From the NCBI GenBank assembly GCA_016928995.1, contig JAFGJS010000123.1:1-13310 (forward strand): a DNA stretch of 13,310 nt, read 5' to 3'. The stretch is from Candidatus Sumerlaeota bacterium (GTDB lineage: Bacteria; Sumerlaeota; Sumerlaeia; JAFGJS01). This document shows positions 1 to 13,310 of this stretch, in pieces (positions within the stretch are counted from its first letter, which is position 1; each line of letters starts with the position of its first letter). The notes beneath the pieces are model-generated. The model saw nothing but the letters and a program-made list of their open reading frames with translations. It was not told the DNA's origin and did no database searches. Made by a program: the position numbers and the translations under genes.

Positions 1-863
1 GCGATCTTGGCCTTACAACAAACATCGCGCTGGAAGGCCGCATAACGCGGCTGGAACAAGAAAAGGCCCTTTTTCAACGGGCTGCTAATCTGTCCAGCAA
101 CACCGCTGACAACTGAGATTTCCCCACATGATGTGCCTCCCGTCAGATCGACAAAGAGTATAGGATTTTGGCCTGCATACATATATTCATTCCCAAAGTT
201 AATTGGAAAATCAAAATGAGGATCAATGGAACACCATCCGCTTAATGAAGTATTTAACCATCGCTCCCGATGATATTGATGGCCAAATAATTCATCACAG
301 TATTGGCCAGTAAACTGGTACGATGTCAAGGAACCGTCGCCGCTCAGCAGATCGCCGTAGGGCGTGTAATCAATAGCACTGTCGCCCACCGGAGCGCCAG
401 CAAAATCGGTCAGCAGGCGCGTGGAGCCGAGGTGGTCGGCGTGGAACAGGGCGCCGCCATCGGCGGATTGCGCCAGCAGCGAGTCGCCGTAGGTGTATTG
501 ATTCTCCACATTGCCGCCGGCGTCCGTCTCGGCCAGCGTCTGGTTGTAGCCGGTCGGATTCCGGTAGTCCGTGAGGAACCGGGTTGTGGAGGGATTGCTC
601 TCGCCGGCGCCCTCGGTCTGGAGGCGGCTGACGCGCGTGCCGTTGTCGTCGTATTCGAAGTAGAGCGTATAGGCCAGCGCGCCGCCGCTCTCGTTATAGA
701 TTTTGGCCTGGATCAGCTGATTCCGAGCGTTCCAGAAATACTCCCGCGCCAGCGTGCTGTTTTTCGTCTCGCTGGAGAGATTGCCGTAGGCGTCATAGGC
801 ATAGTTCTCCACGTCCGTGCCGTCGAACAAGCAGTTGGCGGTTCCTGATGCATCAAATTCCTG
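1..863 (-). pseudogene. Rhs/YD-repeat protein, C-terminal fragment, probably an orphan tip; runs off the left edge
   Basis: Reading leftward from about 863, the minus strand is open to base 1 and gives YD-repeat sequence (ENYAYDAYGN, YFEYDDNGTRVSRLQ, YTYGDSLLAQSADGG). The Rhs core signature follows: HADHLGSTRLLTDFAG, then DYTPYGDL, FTGQY, SGWCSIDP, MYAGQNPILFVDLTGG. In the family this signature closes the beta-cocoon just before a variable toxin-like C-terminus. About 43 residues after VDLTGG lie in the window (TSCGEISVVSGVAGQ... LFLFQPRYAAF...), too few to name a toxin. Just upstream the same frame meets TAA at 864-866 (NPVTA-stop-QEFDASG). No ATG occurs until deep in the core, and the possible TTG/GTG starts have no ribosome site. 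I infer a 5'-truncated or frameshifted Rhs remnant. A one-base loss near 855-860 is possible, because another frame reads KPGDGVTG there, but the sequence farther upstream does not look like Rhs. Confidence 0.75.
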
Positions 864-1052: not shown

Positions 1053-3080
1053 ATGTCGAGAGCATCAACAGCAGGAGCTGGCGCAGCGAACCACGGAAAG
1101 GGCGTCATCCAATGGACTTGGACGATCGTGCTCAGCATTCTCACCGTGCTTTTCGTGTGCATTGTCACTCCATACAATAATTTCATCATCGCCAATTCGT
1201 ACATTTCCGACACCTATCTGCCGCTCGCTTCGATGCTTTGCGTCATCCTGATCTCGCTTGTGATCAATCCGCTCATGCGCATGTTTGTTCCTGCGCTGAC
1301 GCTGAACTTCAGACAACTGGCGATGATCTTTGCCGTGGCGCTGGCCGTGGCGGTCACGCCCAGTTCCGGCCTGCTGCGCATGCTGCCTTACGCCATCGCC
1401 AACACGTGCCAGGACGTCAGTTCAAATAAAATGAACGCCGAAGCCTACGCCGCGCTCGATCCGCCGCCGGCGCTGTTTCCCGACAAACTGCAATTTGGCG
1501 GTCAGACTCCCGTCACCGATCCTTTTATCAGCGAGCTGAAACCCGGAGAAACGATTCCCTGGGCCGCCTGGCTGCCTCCGCTTTTCAGCTGGAGCGGATT
1601 TTTGATTCCCTATTGGCTGATGGTCGTTGCGCTCGGCGTGATCGTCTTCCCGCAATGGCGCGATAATGAACGGCTGCCCTTTCCGCTCATCACGGTGATG
1701 CAGTCACTCATCGAGACGCCGGAACAAGGGAGGCGCCTGCCGCCAATCTTCAGCCGGCGATCTTTTTTGATCGGCGTCATCGGAGTCTTTGCGCTGCATT
1801 TGCTGACCGGTCTCGACGCCTATTGTCCCGGATTTGCGCCCAAAATTCCGCTTAGTTTTGACACCAATCGCTTCTTTACAGAAGAGCCGTTGAATTCTCT
1901 GCCATGGTACACCAAATACAATCGAATCTACTTCACGTTTATCGGCATCGCGTTCTTCATGCCGAATCGAGTCGGATTTTCCATCTGGTCCTTTCAAGTC
2001 ATCTACGCGCTGTATATCATGATCGGCGTCGCTTACTTTCCGCCATTTGCCTGGGGTTCGATCTGCGATCATAGCACCGGCGCGCTCTTCGGCACGGCGC
2101 TTGTGATCGTCTGGCTGGGGCGAAAGCACGGGATGCATGTGCTGAAATGCATGCTCGGCAAGATCGGCGGAGCGGACGACCGCTCCTACCTGCTGAGCGG
2201 CTGGTCGTTCTGGATCGGCTGCGCAGGCATGCTGATCTGGCTGCTCTGGGTCGGCGTGCCGGCCCCCTTTGCCATCTTCTATGTCGCTATGTTGGCGGTC
2301 ATCGCCTTGGTTTTGACGCGCATTATCGCGGAATCCGGCCTTCCCATGCTCGGCGGGGACACCGACTCAATGATGCGTCTGTTGCGCTTGATACCCGCCG
2401 GTTGGCATAACGCCGCGTCGGCGTTCTTCGGCGGATTCGTCTCGCTGCTCTTCGGCTCCGGCAACCGTCTTTGCGCCGCTGTGTTCACCACTCACGCCAT
2501 TGGTCTGGATCGGCAGGCGACGCAATCAAAGCGCGCCTCCATGGGCGCGATCATGCTCGCCGTGATCATCGTGTCCGTGGTCGTCTGCGGCGCGGTGCAC
2601 CTTTGGGGTTCGTATAACCATAGCGTCACGCTTAACGGACTGCAAAGCCCCATCGGCAACAACGGGACGGGCCTGACGTGTTTCGACTGGAGCGCCCGTG
2701 CTCTGCTGCTCGAGCAACAAAAAGGCGCGATGAGCGTCGGGAATTACCACCAGATCGGCCATCTATTCTTCGGTTTTTTCCTCGCCCTTTTGCTGCAATA
2801 CATGTGTCTGAATTTCACCTGGTGGCCGCTGCATCCAGTGGCGCTGCTGTTTGTCGGCAACTGGTACGCCTCGCAGGTCTGGGTCAATGTGTTCATCGGC
2901 TGGCTGGCCAAAATCCTGATCCTGCGTTATGGCGGTTCGCGCGTCTATCGCTCCGCCAGTCCGTTTTTCATCGGACTGGTGATCGGCGAGATGATCGCCG
3001 TGGCGTTCTGGACGCTGATTTCCGGCGTTCGCGCCTTCAACGGCATGCCCTACGAGATCGTCGACATCCTGCCGTTTTAG
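1053..3080 (+). CDS. Polytopic inner-membrane protein, DUF6785/DUF6784-like (function unknown, transporter-like)
   Basis: The product has 675 residues. A short polar N-terminus (1-18) is followed by roughly 13-14 hydrophobic segments, for example near 21-40, 54-78, 84-104, 180-200, 236-252, 290-305, 312-330, 343-356, 383-401, 404-423, 455-472, 494-515, 568-590 and 634-658. The C-terminal part carries a WWPLHP motif (590-595), then GWLAKILILRYGG (616-628) and FFIGLVIGEM (638-647). From memory this pattern matches the DUF6785 (N-terminal) plus DUF6784 (C-terminal) proteins common in Planctomycetota, Lentisphaerota and similar phyla. The overall plan recalls oligopeptide-transporter-like carriers, but no substrate is known. 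Another conserved-looking block is ERLPFPLITVMQSLIE (206-221). The ATG at 1053 has a weak GAGAG 6 nt upstream and is the first good start. The next gene lies 163 bp downstream on the same strand, too far to assume one transcript. Confidence 0.75.
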   Translation: MSRASTAGAGAANHGKGVIQWTWTIVLSILTVLFVCIVTPYNNFIIANSYISDTYLPLASMLCVILISLVINPLMRMFVPALTLNFRQLAMIFAVALAVAVTPSSGLLRMLPYAIANTCQDVSSNKMNAEAYAALDPPPALFPDKLQFGGQTPVTDPFISELKPGETIPWAAWLPPLFSWSGFLIPYWLMVVALGVIVFPQWRDNERLPFPLITVMQSLIETPEQGRRLPPIFSRRSFLIGVIGVFALHLLTGLDAYCPGFAPKIPLSFDTNRFFTEEPLNSLPWYTKYNRIYFTFIGIAFFMPNRVGFSIWSFQVIYALYIMIGVAYFPPFAWGSICDHSTGALFGTALVIVWLGRKHGMHVLKCMLGKIGGADDRSYLLSGWSFWIGCAGMLIWLLWVGVPAPFAIFYVAMLAVIALVLTRIIAESGLPMLGGDTDSMMRLLRLIPAGWHNAASAFFGGFVSLLFGSGNRLCAAVFTTHAIGLDRQATQSKRASMGAIMLAVIIVSVVVCGAVHLWGSYNHSVTLNGLQSPIGNNGTGLTCFDWSARALLLEQQKGAMSVGNYHQIGHLFFGFFLALLLQYMCLNFTWWPLHPVALLFVGNWYASQVWVNVFIGWLAKILILRYGGSRVYRSASPFFIGLVIGEMIAVAFWTLISGVRAFNGMPYEIVDILPF

Positions 3081-3243: not shown

Positions 3244-5184
3244 ATGGAAAACGCAGAACCTTCGAATGATTGGCAGGTACGCTACGCGGATAAAATCGCC
3301 ACCGCCGAAAAGGCGGTGAAGCGCATCCGGACCGGCCATCGCGTGTACATTGGCTCCGGGGCCGGCGAGCCGCAAACACTGGTGGCCGCGCTCTCCAAGC
3401 GCGAAGACCTTAGCGACACGGAGATCATTCACTACCTGACGCTGGGCGTCGCGACTTACGCTGAGCCGCGCCTGGGCAGCCAGTTTCGCCCGAACGCCTT
3501 TTTCATCGGCCCCAATGTGCGCGAGGCAGTCTCGCAGGGACGCGCCGACTATACTCCGATCTTCCTTTCCGAAATTCCCCGGCTGTTCAGCAGCCGGCGT
3601 ATCATGCTGGACGTGGCGTTGATCCAGGTCAGCCCGCCCGACTCAAACGGTCTTTGCAGTTTCGGAGTCTCCTGCGATATTAACATGTCCGCCACGGAGT
3701 CCGCCCAGCTGGTGATCGCCGAGGCGAACGCGCAGTCGCCGCGCTCTCTGGGCAACTGTTTTATTCACGTGGACGACATCGACGTGCTGGTGCCCAGCGA
3801 CACGCCGATCCTGGAGGCGCCTCCCCAGCCCTGCGATGAAATTTCCCAGCGCATCGGCTATCACATCGCGAACCTGGTGGAGGACGGCGCCACGCTGCAA
3901 CTGGGGATCGGCACCGTTCCCGACGCGGTGCTCGCCAATCTGAAAGGCTTCAAAAACCTGGGCATTCACTCGGAAATGATCAGCGATGGCGCGCTGCCGC
4001 TCTTCAAAGAGGGAGTGATCAACAACTCCCAGAAAACGCTGAATCGCGGCAAGTGCGTGATCTCCTTCGTGATGGGCAGCCGCAAGCTCTATGACTATAT
4101 CCACAACAATCCGATGATTGAGTTTCATCCCACGGAATACGTCAATGATCCCTTCATCATCAGTCAACACGAGAAGATGATCTCCATTAACTCGGCGATC
4201 GAGGTGGACCTGACCGGCCAGGTCTGCTCCGACTCGCTGGGAGCGATGTTTTACAGCGGCATCGGCGGCCAGGTTGATTTTGTGCGCGGCGCCTCGCGCT
4301 CGAAGGGGGGCAAGCCGATTATCGCCCTGCCCTCCACCGCGGAGCACGACTCAACTTCCCGCATCGTGCCGCACCTCAAGCAGGGCGCCGGCGTCGTCAC
4401 CAGCCGCGGCGACGTGCATTATATTGTCACGGAATACGGCTCCGCCTATCTCCACGGCCGCACGATTCGCGAACGAGCGATGTCGCTGATTGAGATCGCC
4501 CATCCGCGCTTCCGGCCCTGGCTGATGGCCGAAGCCAAGGCCCGCGGCCTGGTTTACCAGGACCAGATCGAGATCGAGTTCCGCATGCCGACCTATCCGG
4601 ACGAACTCGAGCAATGGCTCAAGCTCAGGGATGAAAGCAAAGTGTTTATGCGTCCGTTAAAAATCAGCGACGAGCCGTACGTCCGGGAATTTTTCTATAA
4701 ACTGACGCCCAAATCGATTCACTATCGCTTCTTCCAGATGATCACCGCGATGCCGCACGCCAAGCTGCAGGAATTTCTCAAGATCGATTACGAAAACGAT
4801 ATGGCGTTTCTGGTGTTGACCGGGAAGATCGACGAGGGTGGCGAGGTAATTGCCATCGCGCATTATCATAAAGATCCGCGCACGAACTTCGCCGAGGCGG
4901 CCTTCCTGGTGCGAGATGACTGGCAGCACAAGGGGATTGGCACCGAGCTGATCCAGAAACTGGCCCAGTGGGCCATCAAGAACGGCATCGCCGGTTTTTC
5001 CGCGGATGTCATCTCGGACAATGTCGGCATGATGCGCATCTTCCATCGTTGCGGCTATCATGTCGATAGTTCACTGGAAGGCGGCGTCTACGAGCTGCAC
5101 ATTCCCTTTGACCGTAAAATCCCCAAGGAAAAAAACCCGCCCAATCCCGAACCGGAAGCCATCAAGAACCAGGGCGACAATTGA
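3244..5184 (+). CDS. Acetyl-CoA hydrolase/CoA-transferase fused to a C-terminal GNAT acetyltransferase
   Basis: The product has 646 residues and is cytosolic. Residues 1 to about 445 form a complete family I CoA-transferase of the acetyl-CoA hydrolase/4-hydroxybutyrate CoA-transferase type. Visible landmarks are GSGAGEPQTL (37-46), LQLGIGTVPDAV (218-229), LGIHSEMISDG (239-249), INSAIEVDLTGQV (315-327) and SGIGGQVDFVRGA (338-350). E244 in the HSEM motif is the likely catalytic glutamate that forms the CoA thioester, by analogy with the HTEM-type motif of 4-hydroxybutyrate CoA-transferases. GGQVDF would line the CoA/oxyanion site. Residues about 467-620 are a GNAT domain: FMRPLKISDEP at its start and the acetyl-CoA-binding motif A with QHKGIG (561-566). 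The charged tail (621-646) looks disordered. This two-domain order is known in several bacterial groups. The first half would swap CoA between acetate and acyl groups; the second would acetylate a protein lysine or small molecule. The ATG at 3244 fits the family N-terminus, though its Shine-Dalgarno is weak. Confidence 0.9.
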   Translation: MENAEPSNDWQVRYADKIATAEKAVKRIRTGHRVYIGSGAGEPQTLVAALSKREDLSDTEIIHYLTLGVATYAEPRLGSQFRPNAFFIGPNVREAVSQGRADYTPIFLSEIPRLFSSRRIMLDVALIQVSPPDSNGLCSFGVSCDINMSATESAQLVIAEANAQSPRSLGNCFIHVDDIDVLVPSDTPILEAPPQPCDEISQRIGYHIANLVEDGATLQLGIGTVPDAVLANLKGFKNLGIHSEMISDGALPLFKEGVINNSQKTLNRGKCVISFVMGSRKLYDYIHNNPMIEFHPTEYVNDPFIISQHEKMISINSAIEVDLTGQVCSDSLGAMFYSGIGGQVDFVRGASRSKGGKPIIALPSTAEHDSTSRIVPHLKQGAGVVTSRGDVHYIVTEYGSAYLHGRTIRERAMSLIEIAHPRFRPWLMAEAKARGLVYQDQIEIEFRMPTYPDELEQWLKLRDESKVFMRPLKISDEPYVREFFYKLTPKSIHYRFFQMITAMPHAKLQEFLKIDYENDMAFLVLTGKIDEGGEVIAIAHYHKDPRTNFAEAAFLVRDDWQHKGIGTELIQKLAQWAIKNGIAGFSADVISDNVGMMRIFHRCGYHVDSSLEGGVYELHIPFDRKIPKEKNPPNPEPEAIKNQGDN

Positions 5185-5313: not shown

Positions 5314-5399
5314 CTTGCTCTTGCTCGTGCTCTTGCTCTTCCTGCCCAACCACACACTGTTTTTTCTTGAGTGAGAGCAAGAGCACGAGCAAGAGCAAG
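5314..5399. repeat. Perfect 26-bp inverted repeat made of GCTCTT/GCTCGT hexamers
   Basis: The arm at 5314-5339 consists of hexamers of the form GCTCTT with one GCTCGT variant. The arm at 5374-5399 is its exact reverse complement, including the variant unit. The 34-nt spacer (5340-5373) contains a TTTTTT run. Neither arm is followed by a U-tract, so this does not look like a terminator. Read as protein the right arm gives only low-complexity SKSKSTSKSK, with no start or ribosome site, so it is unlikely to be coding. A structure of this size could extrude as a cruciform or mark an insertion. Confidence 0.85.
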
Positions 5400-5459: not shown

Positions 5460-8400
5460 CTAATTCGCGCCGGAAGGGATCTCAGGCAATCCCTCAAAAA
5501 GGATGTCCCCATCCAGCGATTTCACTTTGATGTTTCTGAATTCGGCGGCGGTTTCCCATGTGCCAATTCCGACTTGTCCATGAATCTGTAAATATCCTTC
5601 CATGGTTTCATCCAGGATGAGCTCACCATCCAGCCAAACTTGGATGTGCCCGGCATCGTAACGCACATGGATATCGTACCAGCGGCCGGTTTCGATCGAG
5701 CCCGATACGCTTTCGCCGAAAGCCTGTCGTCTGCCGTTCTGAGCGTACTGCAACCGGTGCAAGGTGTTGCGCCAGCCTCCCAGATTGATCCACAGGTAAT
5801 TGTCATCGTCGCTCATGCCGAAGACGATCAAAAAGCCTTCATTGCCGCTTATCTTGCGGGCCTGCAAGGTATAATCAATATCCGTCCAGTCGTGATCGCC
5901 AAAGCCGAGTTTGATATCGGTCAATAGACTGTTTTGCACGATTGCGTCGTCCCGGATTAGCCAATTTGCTCTACGGTTCGTCGGATCGCCAGCGAGTTTC
6001 AGGTTCTGTATCGCTGCCAGCCCCCATTCGGCGCACGCATTGGTGGAGATGCCGATCTCGCCGGGCTTATTATTAAATACAGACTGATTGAATGGGTCTT
6101 TTTCCAGGTGGAAGCTTTTCAGTTCGCCTGAGTACCGGAAAGATTCGAGAAATTCCGCCCATGCGCGTTGGGCTAGATCGGGCCGGTCTAATTTCATGGC
6201 GGCGTAAGCGGTGCATCGCGAATGGGCGTCTCGCAACGCTCCACCTATCCGACCGCCGAATTCTTGTTCCTGGGCGGCCCGGCCGGCGTTGTAAAATTCA
6301 CAGTATTTCACCCAGGTTTTTTCGTAGTCCGGAATGTCCAGCAATTCGACCAGCTCGGCGTTGATCTCCACGGCGCCGAATACAGCGCTCAGATGCGATC
6401 CGCCGACCCAATGGGGATTCTCGAGGAATTCGCCGGTGTCCGGATCGTATCCGCAGCCGCCGGACGCCCAGCCGTATTGCATTTTGCCGATCCCCCGCAA
6501 GCCCGTGAGCAGACGATCGCGCCATTTCGTGTCCTGAGTCAGTTCCCATTCCGTCAGCCAGGCCGCCGCGATCGAGCAATACATGTTGCCGAATCCCATG
6601 TACGCCGGAAAGGGGTATGGCGGATCGCCTTCTTTGACCGGAGTCACTTTGCGTCCAATGTTCACTGTGCGCAGCCGCTGGTCGGAATCGAGCAACTCTG
6701 TGATCTGATCGCGGATGCGCTCATCCGCCGTCAGATAAAGCAGGAAGCGCCTGTTGGCCGCCGTGCTGATGCGCGGCTGTTTGGAGCTGTCCCCCCAATG
6801 CTGCACATTATGACGGGAGCCGAGTCCCTTGAAACGGCCGAGATGATAAACATCCACCTCTCCGGTGTGACGGGTCATCGCCTCGGCGATGCGATAGACG
6901 TCGCTGCGGCCTGTGCGCAGAAAGTAATACCACAGCCAGAGGTCCGGCGAGAGTTCGGAGTTATCCCAGGCGTAGCCGCCGACATCGTAGCGCCAGCATT
7001 GCCTGTCTTCATCGTAGGTGTGCATCACGTCGCCATGATCCCAGAAGCCGTACCAGCGCTCTTCTTCGATTTGCTCCGCGTAGACGTCGAATATGAAGTC
7101 CAGCAGATTTTCGATATCCGCCTTCAACGGCGTTGAACGGTCGGGCAACGTCCACAACGCGCCAAAAACTCCGGCGTCGAGATAATGCTGCGGCTCGCAA
7201 ACGAGCAACGGCGGCGTTTGAACGGCCGCCGAGATGTCCAGCAATTCTTCATGGGATGGCGTAGCGGCCAGCGCCCATAAGTAAAGTTCATTCGTTCTGG
7301 CGACGCCGTGTGGATCGCCCCAGCCTTTTTCGTAATCTTCGTATGTGATGTTCAGGCCTTCGATCTCCTGCTCGTAAGTCTCCATGCCCATGCCGTCGTG
7401 ATAGAAACGCAGATCCATCGCCGGGGCTTCCGGCGACCAGAGCCACATCGTCGCTTCCGCTGTTTCCGACGCCGCGTTGCGGATGTCGATCTGGACGGGA
7501 TGCCGTTGCCAGAAGTAACGCTGGCCGAACGCCACGCCGCCGGTTACGCCGCCGAAATATGCCAGGCCGGTTGCGCGCGTGCCGCCGGTGGAGCGCACCC
7601 AGGTGTGTCCTTCCTTCGTGCGCTTTCGAATCTGATAGCCATCCGCATTCAGTTGAGTGAGCTCATAATCATTCCAGGCCGGAATCAAGTGCATGCGATC
7701 GCTGACGCGCCGGTCCCATGTGTCAATCGGCGGAGTGGCCTTGCCTGCCACTTGAGCCTGACGCGCTGCATAACCAGGATCGCGCCGCAGGCCGGTGATG
7801 CCGCGAATCGCTTCTTTGAACACACCCTTGTCTTCGCTGACGAAGCGGACGTGGCGATTATAGAGTTCATCGCGCATCGGCACATCGAATCGCACGCCCA
7901 AACCGGAGATGAAATCAACTTCTTCATCGCCGTCAAAAACGAACGTGTGCATGATGCGCATCGCTTCATTGCCGGCGTAAAAGTACAGCCGAACCGAGAA
8001 AGGGAGCCAGCCTTCCGGCGATTGTTCGCTGACATGCTTGCCGTCAATTTTCACCACGGCGCGCAATGGTCCTGCCTGTTCGACGATCACCTTTTCGATT
8101 TGCCCAATGAAACTTTCACGTTGAATGCTCTCGCCGGGTTTGATTTCCGGCTTGTTCTGCTTGCTGCCAATCAATCGCGCATTCTTTGCGATCACCACAT
8201 CATTGCGTGTGATCGACTCGATCATTGATGTTCCTGATTTGGGGATGCGATAGACCGCGACGCCGGAATCGACGATGACAGCATCATCGGTCTCTTCAAC
8301 GTTGAGCGTTGTGTCGGGCACTGGAGCTTCGCCGGGGAAGAGGTCATAACTACCTGAAGAGACCTTGCTATCCGCGACAGCATGCGCCGACCATTTCAGA

Positions 8401-8675
8401 GAGCCGTCCGGCCAATAGGCGAACGGCCAGCTCTGCATGGCGATGGCTTCGCCGTCCTTGTCTTTCAGCGCAAAACTCTGATCGGGCTGATACTCGCCCT
8501 TCGGCCAGGGCACGGTCCAAGTCACGCCCGGCGACAGCGCCGGAGCATCCTGCTCCAACCAGTGCAACGGCGTTTTGACTGTTTCAGTCTCCTGAGCGCC
8601 GGCTGCAAAGTTATGAAACGCCATCAAACTCAACAGAACGATCAGCGTTCCGATCCCGCTCAAACGAATAGACAT
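5460..8675 (-). CDS. Secreted PL26/YetA-like exo-rhamnogalacturonan lyase with extra C-terminal jelly-roll module
   Basis: From the ATG at 8675 the product has 1071 residues. Residues 1 to about 27 are a signal peptide (basic MSIRLSG, hydrophobic TLIVLLSLMAF, then AAGA-Q). After that I recognise the PcRGLX/YetA-like plan: an N-terminal RIFT-barrel (about 32-115, with FAYWPDGSLKWSAHAV), a central beta-sandwich (about 120-440), and an alpha/alpha toroid (about 455-895). The toroid holds aromatic and His-rich blocks typical of a sugar cleft: WYGFWDHGDVMHTYD (541-555), GGYAWDNSEL and RHNVQHWGDSS (621-631). Known members cleave rhamnogalacturonan I from the chain end by beta-elimination. Residues about 905-1062 are an additional beta-sandwich (DDDNYLWINLGGWRNTLHRL, then WYDIHVRYDAGHIQVWLDGE) like modules beside GH51 arabinofuranosidases and DUF1080 folds. 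It may bind the polymer and explains why the protein is longer than typical relatives. The gene follows the symporter gene by 68 bp without a visible terminator, so the two are probably co-transcribed. The exact substrate is inferred. Confidence 0.82.
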   Translation of the reverse strand: MSIRLSGIGTLIVLLSLMAFHNFAAGAQETETVKTPLHWLEQDAPALSPGVTWTVPWPKGEYQPDQSFALKDKDGEAIAMQSWPFAYWPDGSLKWSAHAVADSKVSSGSYDLFPGEAPVPDTTLNVEETDDAVIVDSGVAVYRIPKSGTSMIESITRNDVVIAKNARLIGSKQNKPEIKPGESIQRESFIGQIEKVIVEQAGPLRAVVKIDGKHVSEQSPEGWLPFSVRLYFYAGNEAMRIMHTFVFDGDEEVDFISGLGVRFDVPMRDELYNRHVRFVSEDKGVFKEAIRGITGLRRDPGYAARQAQVAGKATPPIDTWDRRVSDRMHLIPAWNDYELTQLNADGYQIRKRTKEGHTWVRSTGGTRATGLAYFGGVTGGVAFGQRYFWQRHPVQIDIRNAASETAEATMWLWSPEAPAMDLRFYHDGMGMETYEQEIEGLNITYEDYEKGWGDPHGVARTNELYLWALAATPSHEELLDISAAVQTPPLLVCEPQHYLDAGVFGALWTLPDRSTPLKADIENLLDFIFDVYAEQIEEERWYGFWDHGDVMHTYDEDRQCWRYDVGGYAWDNSELSPDLWLWYYFLRTGRSDVYRIAEAMTRHTGEVDVYHLGRFKGLGSRHNVQHWGDSSKQPRISTAANRRFLLYLTADERIRDQITELLDSDQRLRTVNIGRKVTPVKEGDPPYPFPAYMGFGNMYCSIAAAWLTEWELTQDTKWRDRLLTGLRGIGKMQYGWASGGCGYDPDTGEFLENPHWVGGSHLSAVFGAVEINAELVELLDIPDYEKTWVKYCEFYNAGRAAQEQEFGGRIGGALRDAHSRCTAYAAMKLDRPDLAQRAWAEFLESFRYSGELKSFHLEKDPFNQSVFNNKPGEIGISTNACAEWGLAAIQNLKLAGDPTNRRANWLIRDDAIVQNSLLTDIKLGFGDHDWTDIDYTLQARKISGNEGFLIVFGMSDDDNYLWINLGGWRNTLHRLQYAQNGRRQAFGESVSGSIETGRWYDIHVRYDAGHIQVWLDGELILDETMEGYLQIHGQVGIGTWETAAEFRNIKVKSLDGDILFEGLPEIPSGAN

Positions 8676-8682
8676 GATCAAT

Positions 8683-8688
8683 CTCCTC
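8683..8688 (-). promoter_or_regulatory. Shine-Dalgarno site that fixes the lyase start at the ATG at 8675
   Basis: On the minus strand GAGGAG (8688 to 8683) is followed by the 7-nt spacer ATTGATC and then ATG at 8675. The longer frame beginning with TTG at 8690 would overlap this ribosome site and have none of its own. The five extra residues (MRRLI) are therefore unlikely to be translated. Confidence 0.85.
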
Positions 8689-8743
8689 AAATAATTGTTT
8701 AAATCTGAATGTAATGTGTGATTCCTGGAATGATGGTGGTTGT

Positions 8744-11296
8744 TTACTGTTCGTAATCAACGACCTCATCCCGCTTCATGCGCATCAGCGTGTATGCGGT
8801 CAATCCTTTTAACTGCTTTTCGGTCGGAGGAGGAGCAAGAAAACTGGCGAAGTATCCGACGGTGACGCTGACGATCAAACCGGCCGGAAAATAGAGGAAT
8901 GCATTAATGTCTATCGTCGAATAATATTTCATATATATAGTCACTGCCGTAGAAGTAATCGCTCCGCACACGATGCCGAAAAAATTAACTCGTCGGGAAA
9001 ACACTCCGAGTGTGAAAATCGCCACAATCGATGGAGCGATGATGCCGGTGATCAGGATCGCCAAATCCCAGACCGAAGGCATTTTATTCTTGGCCAGCCA
9101 CAACGCGGCGGCGGTGCCGATCATTCCGAGCGCGACGGAAAGAATCCGCCCCAGCCAGACACAGCCATGATCGGTCGCATTTTTGAACAAACGCCTGTAC
9201 CAGTCGTCCACTCCCAGGTTGGCCATGCTGTTGACCGCCGAGGAAAGCGTCGACATTGTCGCCGCCAATAGCGCAGCCACCACCAATCCGGCGATTCCCG
9301 AAGGGAGAAACTGAGCGGCGAAGAGCGGATAAACGCCGTCATTTTTCAACGCAGGACTCAACAGCTCGGGACGTTCCCGGTAGAACAAGAACAGTACCGT
9401 GCCGAGAGAGAACAACACCGCATTCAACGGCACAGCCACAGCCATCTGCGTCCCCACCGCCTTCACCGCGTCTTTCTCCGATGCGGTGCACTGCATGCGT
9501 TGAATAAAGTTCTGATCGGAAAGACCGCCGATCGAACCGACCAGCACATTGGCGAAGAGAATATAAACACATGTGCGCGTCAGGTCCAAATGCCAATCGA
9601 ACATATAGAGTTTATGATTGATCTGCAATGCATTGATCATTTCCGTGGTGCCGGAATGCATCAGACAGATAGCCCATGTGATGCACAGCAGCACGGAGCC
9701 AACCATCACAATCGCCTGGATCACGTCGGTCCAGATCACCGCCTCCAAACCTCCCAGCGTGACATAAATTGTCGTCACCACGCCCATGATCAGGATGCTT
9801 TGCCAGACAGGGATTCCGACAATGGCGCTGAGCGCGATCGCCGGCAACAGCATAATCGAAGCCATGCGCGCCAACAGCTGGTTGAGAATAAAGATGATGC
9901 TGCCGTACATGCGTGTGGCGAGGTTAAAACGCCTTTCCAGGTATTCGTTGGATGTGGCCACGTTCAACCGGCGCGCAATCGGCGCAAAAACAAATAATCC
10001 AAGCGGAAGGCACATCACCGAATAAATGCTGACGGTGAAATAGATCCAGTCTTCGGCGTAGGACTTGGCCGGCATGGCCATCAGGCTGATCGCGCTGGCG
10101 CCTGTGGCGAACAGACTCAAGCCGGAGGCCCACCAGGGCACGCGCTGACCGCCGCGGAAAAAGTCTTTGCTGCTCTTTTCGCGTTTGGCCAGAAACGCTC
10201 CAATCCAGAGCATGCCGATAATATAGATAAACACGATGGAATGATCGAGCCATCCATAAGGCGTCGCTTTGAGTTCCGCTTCACCGGCGATGATTCTTTC
10301 TTTTCCAAAGGCTTTGAACTTGACGCCATCTGCAAGTAACTGGATCAGTGCAATGGGCTTGGGCAAATGACCGTTCACCACCCAGGTGTCCGTGACGACA
10401 TGATAAGCCAGGATTTCCTGTGAATGCTCCCGCATGCCGATCAATAAAACATGCGAATCGCCGCAAGGGACTGCCTGCGCGCCTTCAATGGAGCAAGGCG
10501 CGGCTTTCCGTTGCTTCCACTCTCGCCCTGGATCGTAAACATAAGCATCATCGAGAAAATTCCGCGTCGCTGGATCGACTCCTCCAAACAGATAGATATT
10601 CTTCTGATGCGCCGCCATAATCGGATTGAGCCGCGCCTTGCCAGGCCAGGCTTTCAGTTCCGTCCACTCGCCATCCTGATCAGCGATGCTGAGCGACATA
10701 AAGACTGGAGCGCTTGTTCCGTTATCCTCATCAGTGCGCATTCCCGCCAGATAAAGGGCGCCATTCATGGCTGTGGCGGAAACTCCCTCTATCCCGGACG
10801 GAATGGCAGCTATTCCATCAATTCGAATGCTGCCAGACCCGCTAATCAATATATCGCGTTGCGATGCATTGAGCTCGCTTTCATTCGCCGGATTGTCCCA
10901 TTGTATCCGCAGGATTGAGTTTGTGGTTTTCCCGTCCAACTCGCTGCCGATGCAAATGAGATTGCCTGATTGCTGCAAAGTCAAACCACCCGAGAGATGA
11001 ACATCCAGTTCTCCGCCAATTTTCCATTCCTTGGATTCTTCATCCCACCAATAGATGTTTTTGTTCGGAGCAGCCTGATCGTCTTGTTGGGCATAGCCCC
11101 CCATGATGACCAGAAATTCGCCCAATTCGCCGATGATCGCCTGGCTTAATTGAACCGGCGGACTGGTGAATTCATCGACCTTGAAATAATTGACGATGTC
11201 TTCGGGTCCGGATGTTGGAGCATCTTGCGCGGAGGCAACGACTGATGACGACAGAATCAAGATGCATGACAGCATTAAATAAAAAAAACGCAGCAT
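8744..11296 (-). CDS. Kelch-type beta-propeller fused to a sodium:solute symporter (SSS family)
   Basis: The product has 850 residues. Residues 1-24 are a signal peptide (MLRFFYLMLSCILIL... ASAQ-D), which places the next ~320 residues outside the cytoplasmic membrane. That region shows Kelch-like blades: FLVIMGGY (61-68) with IYWWDEESKEWK (81-92), ALYLAGM (180-186), NIYLFGGV (233-240) with AYVYDPGREWKQ (251-262), and VLLIGM (283-288) with YHVVTDTWVV (298-307). It resembles the N-acetylneuraminate epimerase/cyclically permuted mutarotase group. From about 349 to 822 lies an SSS/LeuT-fold carrier with about 13-14 membrane segments. Its first core helix is WASGLSLFATGASAISLMA (389-407), and the conserved STLSSAVNSMANLGVDDWYRR (682-702) contains the serines expected at the sodium site. 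The ribosome site GAAGGA is 9 nt before the ATG. It precedes the lyase gene by 68 bp, so the likely cargo is a rhamnogalacturonan breakdown product rather than sialic acid. Such propeller-SSS fusions occur in Planctomycetota-like genomes. Confidence 0.87.
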   Translation of the reverse strand: MLRFFYLMLSCILILSSSVVASAQDAPTSGPEDIVNYFKVDEFTSPPVQLSQAIIGELGEFLVIMGGYAQQDDQAAPNKNIYWWDEESKEWKIGGELDVHLSGGLTLQQSGNLICIGSELDGKTTNSILRIQWDNPANESELNASQRDILISGSGSIRIDGIAAIPSGIEGVSATAMNGALYLAGMRTDEDNGTSAPVFMSLSIADQDGEWTELKAWPGKARLNPIMAAHQKNIYLFGGVDPATRNFLDDAYVYDPGREWKQRKAAPCSIEGAQAVPCGDSHVLLIGMREHSQEILAYHVVTDTWVVNGHLPKPIALIQLLADGVKFKAFGKERIIAGEAELKATPYGWLDHSIVFIYIIGMLWIGAFLAKREKSSKDFFRGGQRVPWWASGLSLFATGASAISLMAMPAKSYAEDWIYFTVSIYSVMCLPLGLFVFAPIARRLNVATSNEYLERRFNLATRMYGSIIFILNQLLARMASIMLLPAIALSAIVGIPVWQSILIMGVVTTIYVTLGGLEAVIWTDVIQAIVMVGSVLLCITWAICLMHSGTTEMINALQINHKLYMFDWHLDLTRTCVYILFANVLVGSIGGLSDQNFIQRMQCTASEKDAVKAVGTQMAVAVPLNAVLFSLGTVLFLFYRERPELLSPALKNDGVYPLFAAQFLPSGIAGLVVAALLAATMSTLSSAVNSMANLGVDDWYRRLFKNATDHGCVWLGRILSVALGMIGTAAALWLAKNKMPSVWDLAILITGIIAPSIVAIFTLGVFSRRVNFFGIVCGAITSTAVTIYMKYYSTIDINAFLYFPAGLIVSVTVGYFASFLAPPPTEKQLKGLTAYTLMRMKRDEVVDYEQ

Positions 11297-11550: not shown

Positions 11551-11581
11551 GAAAAATTAAGGGCTGGCATATTGCCAGCCC
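11551..11581 (-). terminator. Rho-independent terminator of the LamG/PPC protein gene
   Basis: On the minus strand a perfect 9-bp stem (GGGCTGGCA/TGCCAGCCC) with the 3-nt loop ATA, at 11581 to 11561, is followed directly by TTAATTTTTC (11560 to 11551). It begins 31 nt after the stop codon of the gene ending at 11612. This is the classic GC-rich stem plus U-tract and points to transcription from the right. Confidence 0.88.
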
Positions 11582-11611
11582 CAATTTTCATCCATTTCAT
11601 CGCTCTGCTCA

Positions 11612-13310
11612 TTATCGCGAATAATCCACATGCAGCGGGTAATTGCCGTATTGGTGGTAGTAGCTATCGACGACAATGTAATACACTCCGGCATCGAGCG
11701 AGATGTCTTCGAACGGTGAACAGTAGTTAGGATCAAAGAAGTGGCCATTGCCTGTTGAAACGCCGTCTTTGTCAAAGATTTCAACATAAGCGCTGAAGGT
11801 GAAATACCCATCGCACAGGTTGATGTCGATCAATGCGGGTTCGCGCAGGATGAGTTTGTACGATTGATCCGAGCCGTCCGGCATGCCGCCATTGGTATCC
11901 CAATCGTCGGTTTTGTAGGCGGTTGAGCCGTTGTGTTCGAATGGCAATTGATCGATGTAAAAATCGGCCGCCGGAACCCCCACGGCATGCGCCATATATT
12001 CATCCAGGATTTGCTCATCGCGGAGCCTGTCGCCATAGATCTTCACCTCATCGATCTTGCCCGCAAAAGTGTAGCTCCAGCTCAAGGTGCCAATGCCCAT
12101 GCGTTCACCCGTCCACAGAGGTTGTATGACCATATTAGTATCAGTGAGAAATCTATCGCTGGTTTTGATCAACCGGCCGTTGTAATACAATCTCCAGCGA
12201 GCATCTGTTGAATAAGACGCGCCGACATACGACCATTGATTCAAAGGAATCACGTCGTCGCTGGTTAATCCGTAATACGTTGAACCATGCGCGAAATGCA
12301 CATTCAAACGGCCATCCGCCAGCATTTGCAGATCAAAATCACGGTTGGGAGTGGTTTTGGAAATGATCGTGTCGTAGTTTTTATAACTCGTCGGATAAAT
12401 CCAGGCGGAGATGTAAAAGTCATTCATCCCGTTGAAATGCGCCGGATTGCTGATTCGGATCTGGTCGTCGGCGCCATCCAACAGGACGGCATTGCCGAAA
12501 CCATCCTGTCCTTGCGTATAGCTGGCGCCGTTGTAAAGGGTTCCAGCGTTGCTAAATTCGCTTTGATCCGCGGTTGTGCCGTTCAATGACCACATGCCCA
12601 TTAACGGATGATTGCCCGACCACGTATTGACGATTTCTCCGGCATAAATGGCGCCCATTTGATCCGGAGTCATCAGCGAACCGAAAAACTGCACTTCGTC
12701 GATCTTGCCATTGAAACCATAGCTCCAGTTCATCGTGCCAATCCCCATGCGCGAGCCTCCCCATACAGGAGCATGCCCCGCATGGCTGGTTTCCTTGACG
12801 AGATCCCCATTGATGTACAGTTGCCAGGCCGTGCCAGTCCAGACGGCGCCCACATGCGTCCATTTGTTCAGCGGCACGGTTTCTGTGCTGGTGCAATGAT
12901 AATATGAGGAGCCTTGCGTAAAATGCGCATTCAGCCGGCCGTCGGACAGCAGCCAGAACACAAACTCACGGGTGGGATTCACTTTGGAAAGAATGCTGTT
13001 ATAGGTGCTGTAGCTCGTGGGATAAACCCAGGCGGCCATGGCGAAGGCGTCCAGATTGTTAAAATAATGCTTGTTCTGGATTTCAACCCGGTCGCTGCCG
13101 CCGTTGAATTCAAGCGCCGAACCGATAAAGCCGGGCGCCCATTCCGCGCCGATAATCGTTCCATCGCTGCCGCCCAAAAAGGGACGGGTAATGTCGCCGT
13201 CACCTTCGCGGAAATCCCACCAGGGATACAAACTGTTCGCGCTGTCTTCCGCCCAGGTCCAGGCCACGCAAAAATACGTGAATTCCCCGGCCGGGATGCG
13301 GTCGATGGAA
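11612..13310 (-). CDS. LamG/LamG/PPC-domain protein, C-terminal part, 5' end outside the window
   Basis: The frame is open to the right edge (SIDRIPAGEFTYFCVAWTW...), so the GTG at 13267 is an internal codon and not a supported start. Residues below are numbered from 13267. The first LamG-like jelly-roll spans about 14-210 (ALEFNGGSDRVEI, AAWVYPTSY, GKIDEVQFF). A second follows at about 222-428 (AVLLDGADDQIRI, SAWIYPTSY, GKIDEVKIYG). They share MGIGT.xWSY.F.GKIDEV, which shows tandem duplication. Residues about 432-551 form a PPC-like beta-sandwich (ALIDINLCDG, AYVEIFDKDG, LDAGVYYIVVDSYYHQYGNYPLHVDYS), a module often found at the end of exported proteins. Its paired cysteines (C485, C516) would suit an oxidising compartment. 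No transmembrane anchor or sorting signal is seen at the C-terminus. LamG domains bind sugars or proteins, so a surface or secreted adhesin or carbohydrate-binding role is likely, but the missing N-terminus may hold a catalytic domain. Confidence 0.82.
   Translation of the reverse strand, partial: SIDRIPAGEFTYFCVAWTWAEDSANSLYPWWDFREGDGDITRPFLGGSDGTIIGAEWAPGFIGSALEFNGGSDRVEIQNKHYFNNLDAFAMAAWVYPTSYSTYNSILSKVNPTREFVFWLLSDGRLNAHFTQGSSYYHCTSTETVPLNKWTHVGAVWTGTAWQLYINGDLVKETSHAGHAPVWGGSRMGIGTMNWSYGFNGKIDEVQFFGSLMTPDQMGAIYAGEIVNTWSGNHPLMGMWSLNGTTADQSEFSNAGTLYNGASYTQGQDGFGNAVLLDGADDQIRISNPAHFNGMNDFYISAWIYPTSYKNYDTIISKTTPNRDFDLQMLADGRLNVHFAHGSTYYGLTSDDVIPLNQWSYVGASYSTDARWRLYYNGRLIKTSDRFLTDTNMVIQPLWTGERMGIGTLSWSYTFAGKIDEVKIYGDRLRDEQILDEYMAHAVGVPAADFYIDQLPFEHNGSTAYKTDDWDTNGGMPDGSDQSYKLILREPALIDINLCDGYFTFSAYVEIFDKDGVSTGNGHFFDPNYCSPFEDISLDAGVYYIVVDSYYHQYGNYPLHVDYSR

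Follow-up and report, generated by a model that had tools for sequence, protein, structure and literature searches.

In the window analyzed here (the whole 13,310-nucleotide stretch of DNA, from a Candidatus Sumerlaeota bacterium), an SSS symporter carrying an N-terminal kelch propeller is encoded next to an exported protein that resembles the rhamnogalacturonan exo-lyases of family PL26 (Table 1). Sequence comparison places this transporter in a distinct clade of sialic-acid-type fused transporters that is tied to a pectin lyase. We consider it probable (at roughly 0.7) that the pair works as a compact unit for transporting and processing fragments of rhamnogalacturonan I (RG-I), in which the symporter would take up the unsaturated acidic product.

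Layout of the gene pair

The preliminary description, made from the letters of the sequence, had placed the two genes 68 bp apart in one apparent transcript bounded by an upstream terminator. Both ORFs are present. The motif GAGGAG lies directly before the ATG at 8675 in the lyase ORF, so this ATG is probably the start; with this start the spacing is indeed 68 bp, with both genes on the same strand and the transporter first. A consensus scan found no terminator-like site within the 68-bp gap, and the two genes are probably co-expressed. The same type of scan supports the upstream boundary, where the hairpin with its T tail is a consensus match only. The core of the inverted repeat downstream of the pair (GAGCAAGAGC) recurs in the same genome (L138, 16402-16530; L140, 5737).

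Table 1. Features of the window, with positions counted from its first letter
Feature	Position	Strand	Remarks
RHS-repeat-like C-terminal fragment	3-830	-	at contig end; called by eye from translation
Membrane protein	1053-3080	+	matches DUF6785 and DUF6784
Acetyl-CoA hydrolase/transferase fused to GNAT acetyltransferase domain	3244-5184	+	Pfam
26-nt perfect inverted repeat	5314-5399		downstream of pair, between convergent genes; sequence CTTGCTCTTGCTCGTGCTCTTGCTCT
Exported PL26 rhamnogalacturonan exo-lyase-like protein	5460-8675	-	start ATG 8675; in-frame TTG at 8690 (ORF 5460-8690)
C-terminal lectin-like (3keto-disac_hyd/LamG) domain of lyase	5481-5972	-	PF06439, 2.3e-07
Tyr450 of lyase	7341-7343	-	aligns with the Tyr replaced by Phe in PcRGLX entry 5xqo
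Kelch propeller-SSS symporter fusion	8744-11296	-	ORF, 850 aa
SSS symporter domain, residues 346-830	8807-10261	-	PF00474 at residues 379-780; sodium-site residues conserved
Arg477, equivalent of SiaT Arg135	9866-9868	-	alignment
Six-bladed kelch propeller, predicted periplasmic, residues 24-345	10262-11227	-	structure model and profiles
Likely signal peptide, residues 1-23	11228-11296	-	hydrophobic N-terminus ending ASAQ (read from sequence); modelled as one helix
Terminator-like hairpin upstream of pair	11560-11582	-	10 pairs, T tail; consensus scan match only
Protein with two LamG-type domains	11612-13309	-	runs off contig end

The lyase

PL26 is counted among the rhamnogalacturonan lyase families (PMC8787155). 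The assignment of the lyase to PL26, made in the preliminary description, is borne out by all three PcRGLX domains (PF19501, PF21345 and PF21346), which occur in order and above the Pfam cut-offs (105, 517 and 540 bits; 1.7e-30 to 4.9e-162), and by its nearest solved relative, the exo-rhamnogalacturonan lyase PcRGLX itself (5xq3, E 2.8e-232). PcRGLX releases short unsaturated products that bear a carboxylate (4-deoxy-uronyl-rhamnose). The window protein shares with it the three domains as well as Tyr450 and its surroundings, but is bacterial and has an additional C-terminal lectin-like domain. Tyr450 is invariant in our PL26 alignment (A1), and the PcRGLX sequences 5xqg and 5xqo show a visible Tyr to Phe difference in the motif ITYEDWE, which suggests that this position marks the catalytic tyrosine. 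The C-terminal domain shares 48% identity with part of an arabinofuranosidase encoded in the same genome and may represent an accessory domain shared among RG-I-directed enzymes. The window lyase is a putative exo-lyase on RG-I.

A second PL26 gene in the same genome (C25; L024, 10996-14599) encodes a protein 67% identical to the window lyase, from an ORF with no visible signal peptide. After it come a DUF1961 gene and one for a LacI regulator. PL26 has neighbors of the DUF1961 or DUF6250 type in Hymenobacter and Pseudoalteromonas as well.

The fused transporter

The symporter domain matches PF00474 (SSF) over nearly its full length (profile positions 1-404 of 406; 161.8 bits, 3.1e-47) and TIGR00813 above its cut-off. 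Its nearest solved relative is the sialic acid transporter SiaT of Proteus mirabilis (5nv9, 4.5e-78). The propeller matches the NANM (3e-17), Kelch and TIGR03548 (6.6e-21) profiles; the scores against the NanM-type NCBIfam models lie below their cut-offs (TIGR03547, 58 bits versus 256; TIGR03548, 75 bits versus 243). Together with the signal-like N-terminus, these matches agree with the earlier description of a sodium symporter that carries an exported propeller of sugar-epimerase type, and the propeller is NanM-like.

The structure model of the propeller confidently shows a six-bladed kelch fold (pLDDT 80.5, pTM 0.82) and matches kelch folds in the PDB at Z scores of up to about 22. In the comparison with NanM proposed beforehand, NanM itself is not among the listed PDB matches, where many kelch domains tie, and it may still be a structural match. 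The model of the full-length transporter was poor (pLDDT 54.8) and was left out of use.

Conservation of the pair

A scan with the PL26 alignment yielded 80 loci from named genomes. In only three of these is PL26 immediately adjacent to a kelch-SSS gene of the same orientation, namely in an Opitutia genome (L037; 4-bp overlap), in a Puniceicoccaceae genome (L042; PL26 then kelch-SSS, with a 32-bp gap) and in a Latescibacterota genome (L045; transporter first as in the window, with a 3-bp gap). PL26 thus does not require a kelch-SSS transporter. Transporters of other families occupy the same position at other loci: ABC-type genes adjoin PL26 in G090 and L032 (read from ORFs), and a Pseudoalteromonas plasmid (L023) carries, as in the window, a sugar importer beside PL26, although of a different family (MFS, annotated). 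By its annotation, this MFS gene appears to be split by an IS4 transposase (L023, 14366-17290).

We also surveyed the transporter independently of its neighbors. In 384 genomes of the class of L042 (Verrucomicrobiota), the transporter profile and PL26 were searched separately, and in this survey as in a second one the two best candidates per genome were scored, which makes the numbers of weaker matches minimum values. Of at least 59 matches, the top three (at least 996 bits, with the next at 705) were the L042 copy itself and those of G772 and G701, and all three lie beside PL26. None of the other kelch-SSS or SSS matches (0 of 56 among the best two per genome) lies within 100 kb of PL26. In the second survey, of 386 genomes related to or distant from that of the window, only the window itself reached this score level among the best two candidates per genome. 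With random placement of 27 PL26 copies, each with two neighboring slots, in 384 genomes of an estimated ~3,500 genes, adjacency to PL26 would arise by chance at about 4e-5 per gene; yet both members found without using adjacency (G772 and G701) are adjacent to it. The pairing of transporter and PL26 is not due to chance.

In phylogenies, the symporter domains of the six PL26-linked transporters form one clade (support 98/97; 100/100 on a smaller set of four members) apart from the sialic-type fusions. The clade spans at least three phyla, and each of its six members has PL26 as its direct neighbor; both gene orders occur, and the spacing, where measured, ranges from overlap to ~70 bp. The pair on which the preliminary description had built its reading therefore recurs in other lineages.

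The PL26 partners of the clade members are not monophyletic, so the link arose or persisted with more than one PL26 lineage, and this speaks for function over common descent of a DNA block. We rejected the idea of a fixed transporter-lyase pair that is inherited together, because the PL26 partners do not group as a single clade and the closest relative of the window lyase is the second copy in its own genome. In other genomes of the window's class we did not find PL26, and the matches there were to the C-terminal domain of the lyase only. The literature searched contained nothing on kelch-SSS fusions or PL26-linked symporters.

The sister clade of the PL26-linked transporters (L211 and L212) consists of kelch-SSS genes with neither PL26 nor sialic-type genes nearby. 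One of these loci (L211) has a DUF1961-like neighbor, as judged by eye.

Comparison with sialic-acid-type relatives

The nearest fused relatives of the window transporter sit in sialic acid loci and resemble SiaT plus NanM, a position that the preliminary description had missed. For instance, fused kelch-SSS genes in the window's own class (L028-L031) have genes for DHDPS-family lyases, for a GlcNAc 2-epimerase or for a sialidase-like BNR protein in their vicinity, and six further loci (L203, L204 and L206-L209) likewise have such sialic-type genes nearby. This context, in the window's class and in Verrucomicrobiota, and SiaT as the closest characterized relative would favor a sialic acid importer that has PL26 as an accidental neighbor. 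We regard this as very unlikely, because every member of the clade lies beside PL26 across phyla while none of the other matches (best two per genome) does, because probes for NanA, epimerase and sialidase matched none of the PL26-linked loci, and because the substrate site is altered.

In SiaT, Arg135 binds the carboxylate of the substrate, and changes at positions 60, 63, 82 or 135 abolish Neu5Ac transport (PMC5931594). The window transporter shares with SiaT the fold family, the Arg135 equivalent, Asp182 and the Ser/Thr positions of Na2 and Na3; its residues at the sodium-site positions (SiaT Asp182 and Ser342, 343, 345 and 346) are D, S, T, S and S. It differs in the changes at positions 58, 63, 81 and 82, in an insertion before Arg135, in its N-terminal propeller and in its link to PL26 instead of sialic acid genes. 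Among the Neu5Ac contacts (Ser60, Thr63, Gln82 and Arg135), it keeps Ser60 and Arg135 and has Ser in place of both Thr63 and Gln82, and hence does not carry the SiaT-type set.

These changes are shared by the clade. All six proteins have Ser for Thr at position 63 and Ser or Gly for Asn or Gln at position 82, whereas the fused sialic-type proteins have Thr63 and Asn82. Position 58 is mostly Gly or Ala, position 81 is bulky, and one residue is inserted before the Arg135 equivalent. Ser60, Arg135, Asp182 and the serines and threonines of Na2 and Na3 are kept throughout, with the exception of Ser345, which is Asp in L045. This pattern fits a substrate that bears a carboxylate but is other than Neu5Ac, and the PL26-linked transporter looks like a sialic acid importer that has been adapted to another acidic sugar. 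We rejected the use of Arg135 to prove specifically that the substrate is a uronate, because the equivalent arginine is conserved in nearly every relative examined.

The propeller

The preliminary description had suggested that the propeller may interconvert anomers of the unsaturated product. The sialic-type fusions retain GGANFP as well as a Glu/Arg motif corresponding in the alignment to NGEAKPGLR of E. coli NanM, in which we take Glu209 and Arg215 of the mature protein to be catalytic. The region of this Glu/Arg motif is missing from all six PL26-linked propellers, so NanM-type mutarotase chemistry is unlikely for them, and the proposed interconversion is not supported. None of the six has certain further residues outside the scaffold that the sialic-type propellers share. 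The window propeller thus shares with NanM and the TIGR03548 cyclically permuted mutarotases the exported six-bladed kelch fold and the matches to the NANM and mutarot_permut profiles (the latter below cut-off), but is fused to an SSS domain and lacks both motifs.

The descent from a NanM-like propeller and the retained six-bladed fold could still speak for an enzyme, a mutarotase or epimerase acting on the PL26 product through a new active site. Conservation points the other way. Among 90 positions conserved in the sialic-type set, 26, including the Glu/Arg motif region, are kept in none of the six PL26-linked proteins, and 12 are kept in all of them (mostly Gly, Pro and Trp of the scaffold, plus His and Thr). 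Only 16 residues are invariant among the six, almost without exception Gly, Trp, Pro, Tyr or further residues of the kelch scaffold. A separate rhamnose mutarotase is, moreover, encoded at two of the loci (L042 and L202). An enzymatic propeller is therefore unlikely in our judgment, and we infer that capture or gating of the substrate fits better.

Pathway context and the transported product

The earlier reading of the pair as a pectin unit is likely to be right. Besides PL26, the window's genome encodes GH105, GH53, an arabinofuranosidase, RhaA, RhaM and an FGGY kinase, and RhaM (L-rhamnose mutarotase) directly precedes PL26 in L042 and L202, which share the order LacI, GFO/IDH oxidoreductase, RhaM, PL26 and kelch-SSS. 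The GH105, GH53, GH51 and rhamnose pathway genes of the window's genome, together with RhaM beside the pair in these two relatives, point to RG-I. L042 also holds RhaA, GH43 and an arabinofuranosidase, and GH43 is present in L037 and L201. In the window's genome, the GH105 and rhamnose genes lie on contigs other than that of the pair: a single GH88/105 gene beside GH53 and GH2, and a rhamnose cluster of FGGY kinase, RhaA, an ABC importer and RhaM. We did not find KduI (PF04962) in this genome, which is 92% complete; handling of the unsaturated uronate by the usual route is accordingly only presumed.

The claim that the route uses neither SusCD nor an ABC importer stands for the two-gene unit in the window, where no SusC/SusD pair is present among the ORFs. 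It does not extend further: a large gene ~3 kb upstream of PL26 in L042 contains a TonB-receptor plug domain, L202 has a similar uncharacterized gene at the same place, and a rhamnose-type ABC importer is encoded beside RhaA on another contig of the window's genome.

The transporter might instead import another RG-I product, for example rhamnose in free form, galacturonate or oligosaccharides containing arabinose or galactose. The side-chain enzymes (GH43 and arabinofuranosidase) and RhaM at the loci are compatible with this, and the second PL26 protein could act on imported oligosaccharides. Against it, the genome already has the rhamnose-type ABC importer, and the retained arginine suits an acidic sugar; we consider such a substrate somewhat unlikely.

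We favor uptake of the unsaturated disaccharide. The exported PL26 enzyme would cut the rhamnogalacturonan backbone into 4-deoxy-uronyl-rhamnose or similarly short, unsaturated, carboxylate-bearing products, and the SSS domain would import the acidic sugar with sodium through its SiaT-like arginine and sodium sites, with the other sugar contacts altered. From the SSS topology, the propeller is predicted to lie on the outer side of the inner membrane, by the transporter's mouth, where it most likely captures or guides the substrate or else may be a structural remnant, rather than a NanM-type mutarotase. Inside the cell, the product would be split by the unsaturated-uronyl hydrolase (GH105), and the rhamnose would enter the rhamnose pathway, whose genes lie elsewhere in the genome. 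The transporter would descend from a NanM-SiaT-like fusion that serves sialic acid elsewhere. Possibly, and we propose this tentatively, the propeller is a tethered capture domain that passes the acidic disaccharide on to the symporter, such that a single-chain SSS protein works like a binding-protein-dependent importer and the design was switched from sialic acid to pectin products.

Implications

Annotation by nearest relative would label the PL26-linked transporters as sialic acid transporters or epimerases. The uptake of rhamnogalacturonan fragments outside Bacteroidota has largely been assigned by analogy, and the pair provides a specific, conserved transporter candidate. The combination of a kelch-SSS protein of this clade with PL26 can serve as a marker when pectin use is annotated in phyla with few cultured members, and the sialic acid and pectin clades are a natural pair for learning which residues set the substrate in SSS symporters.
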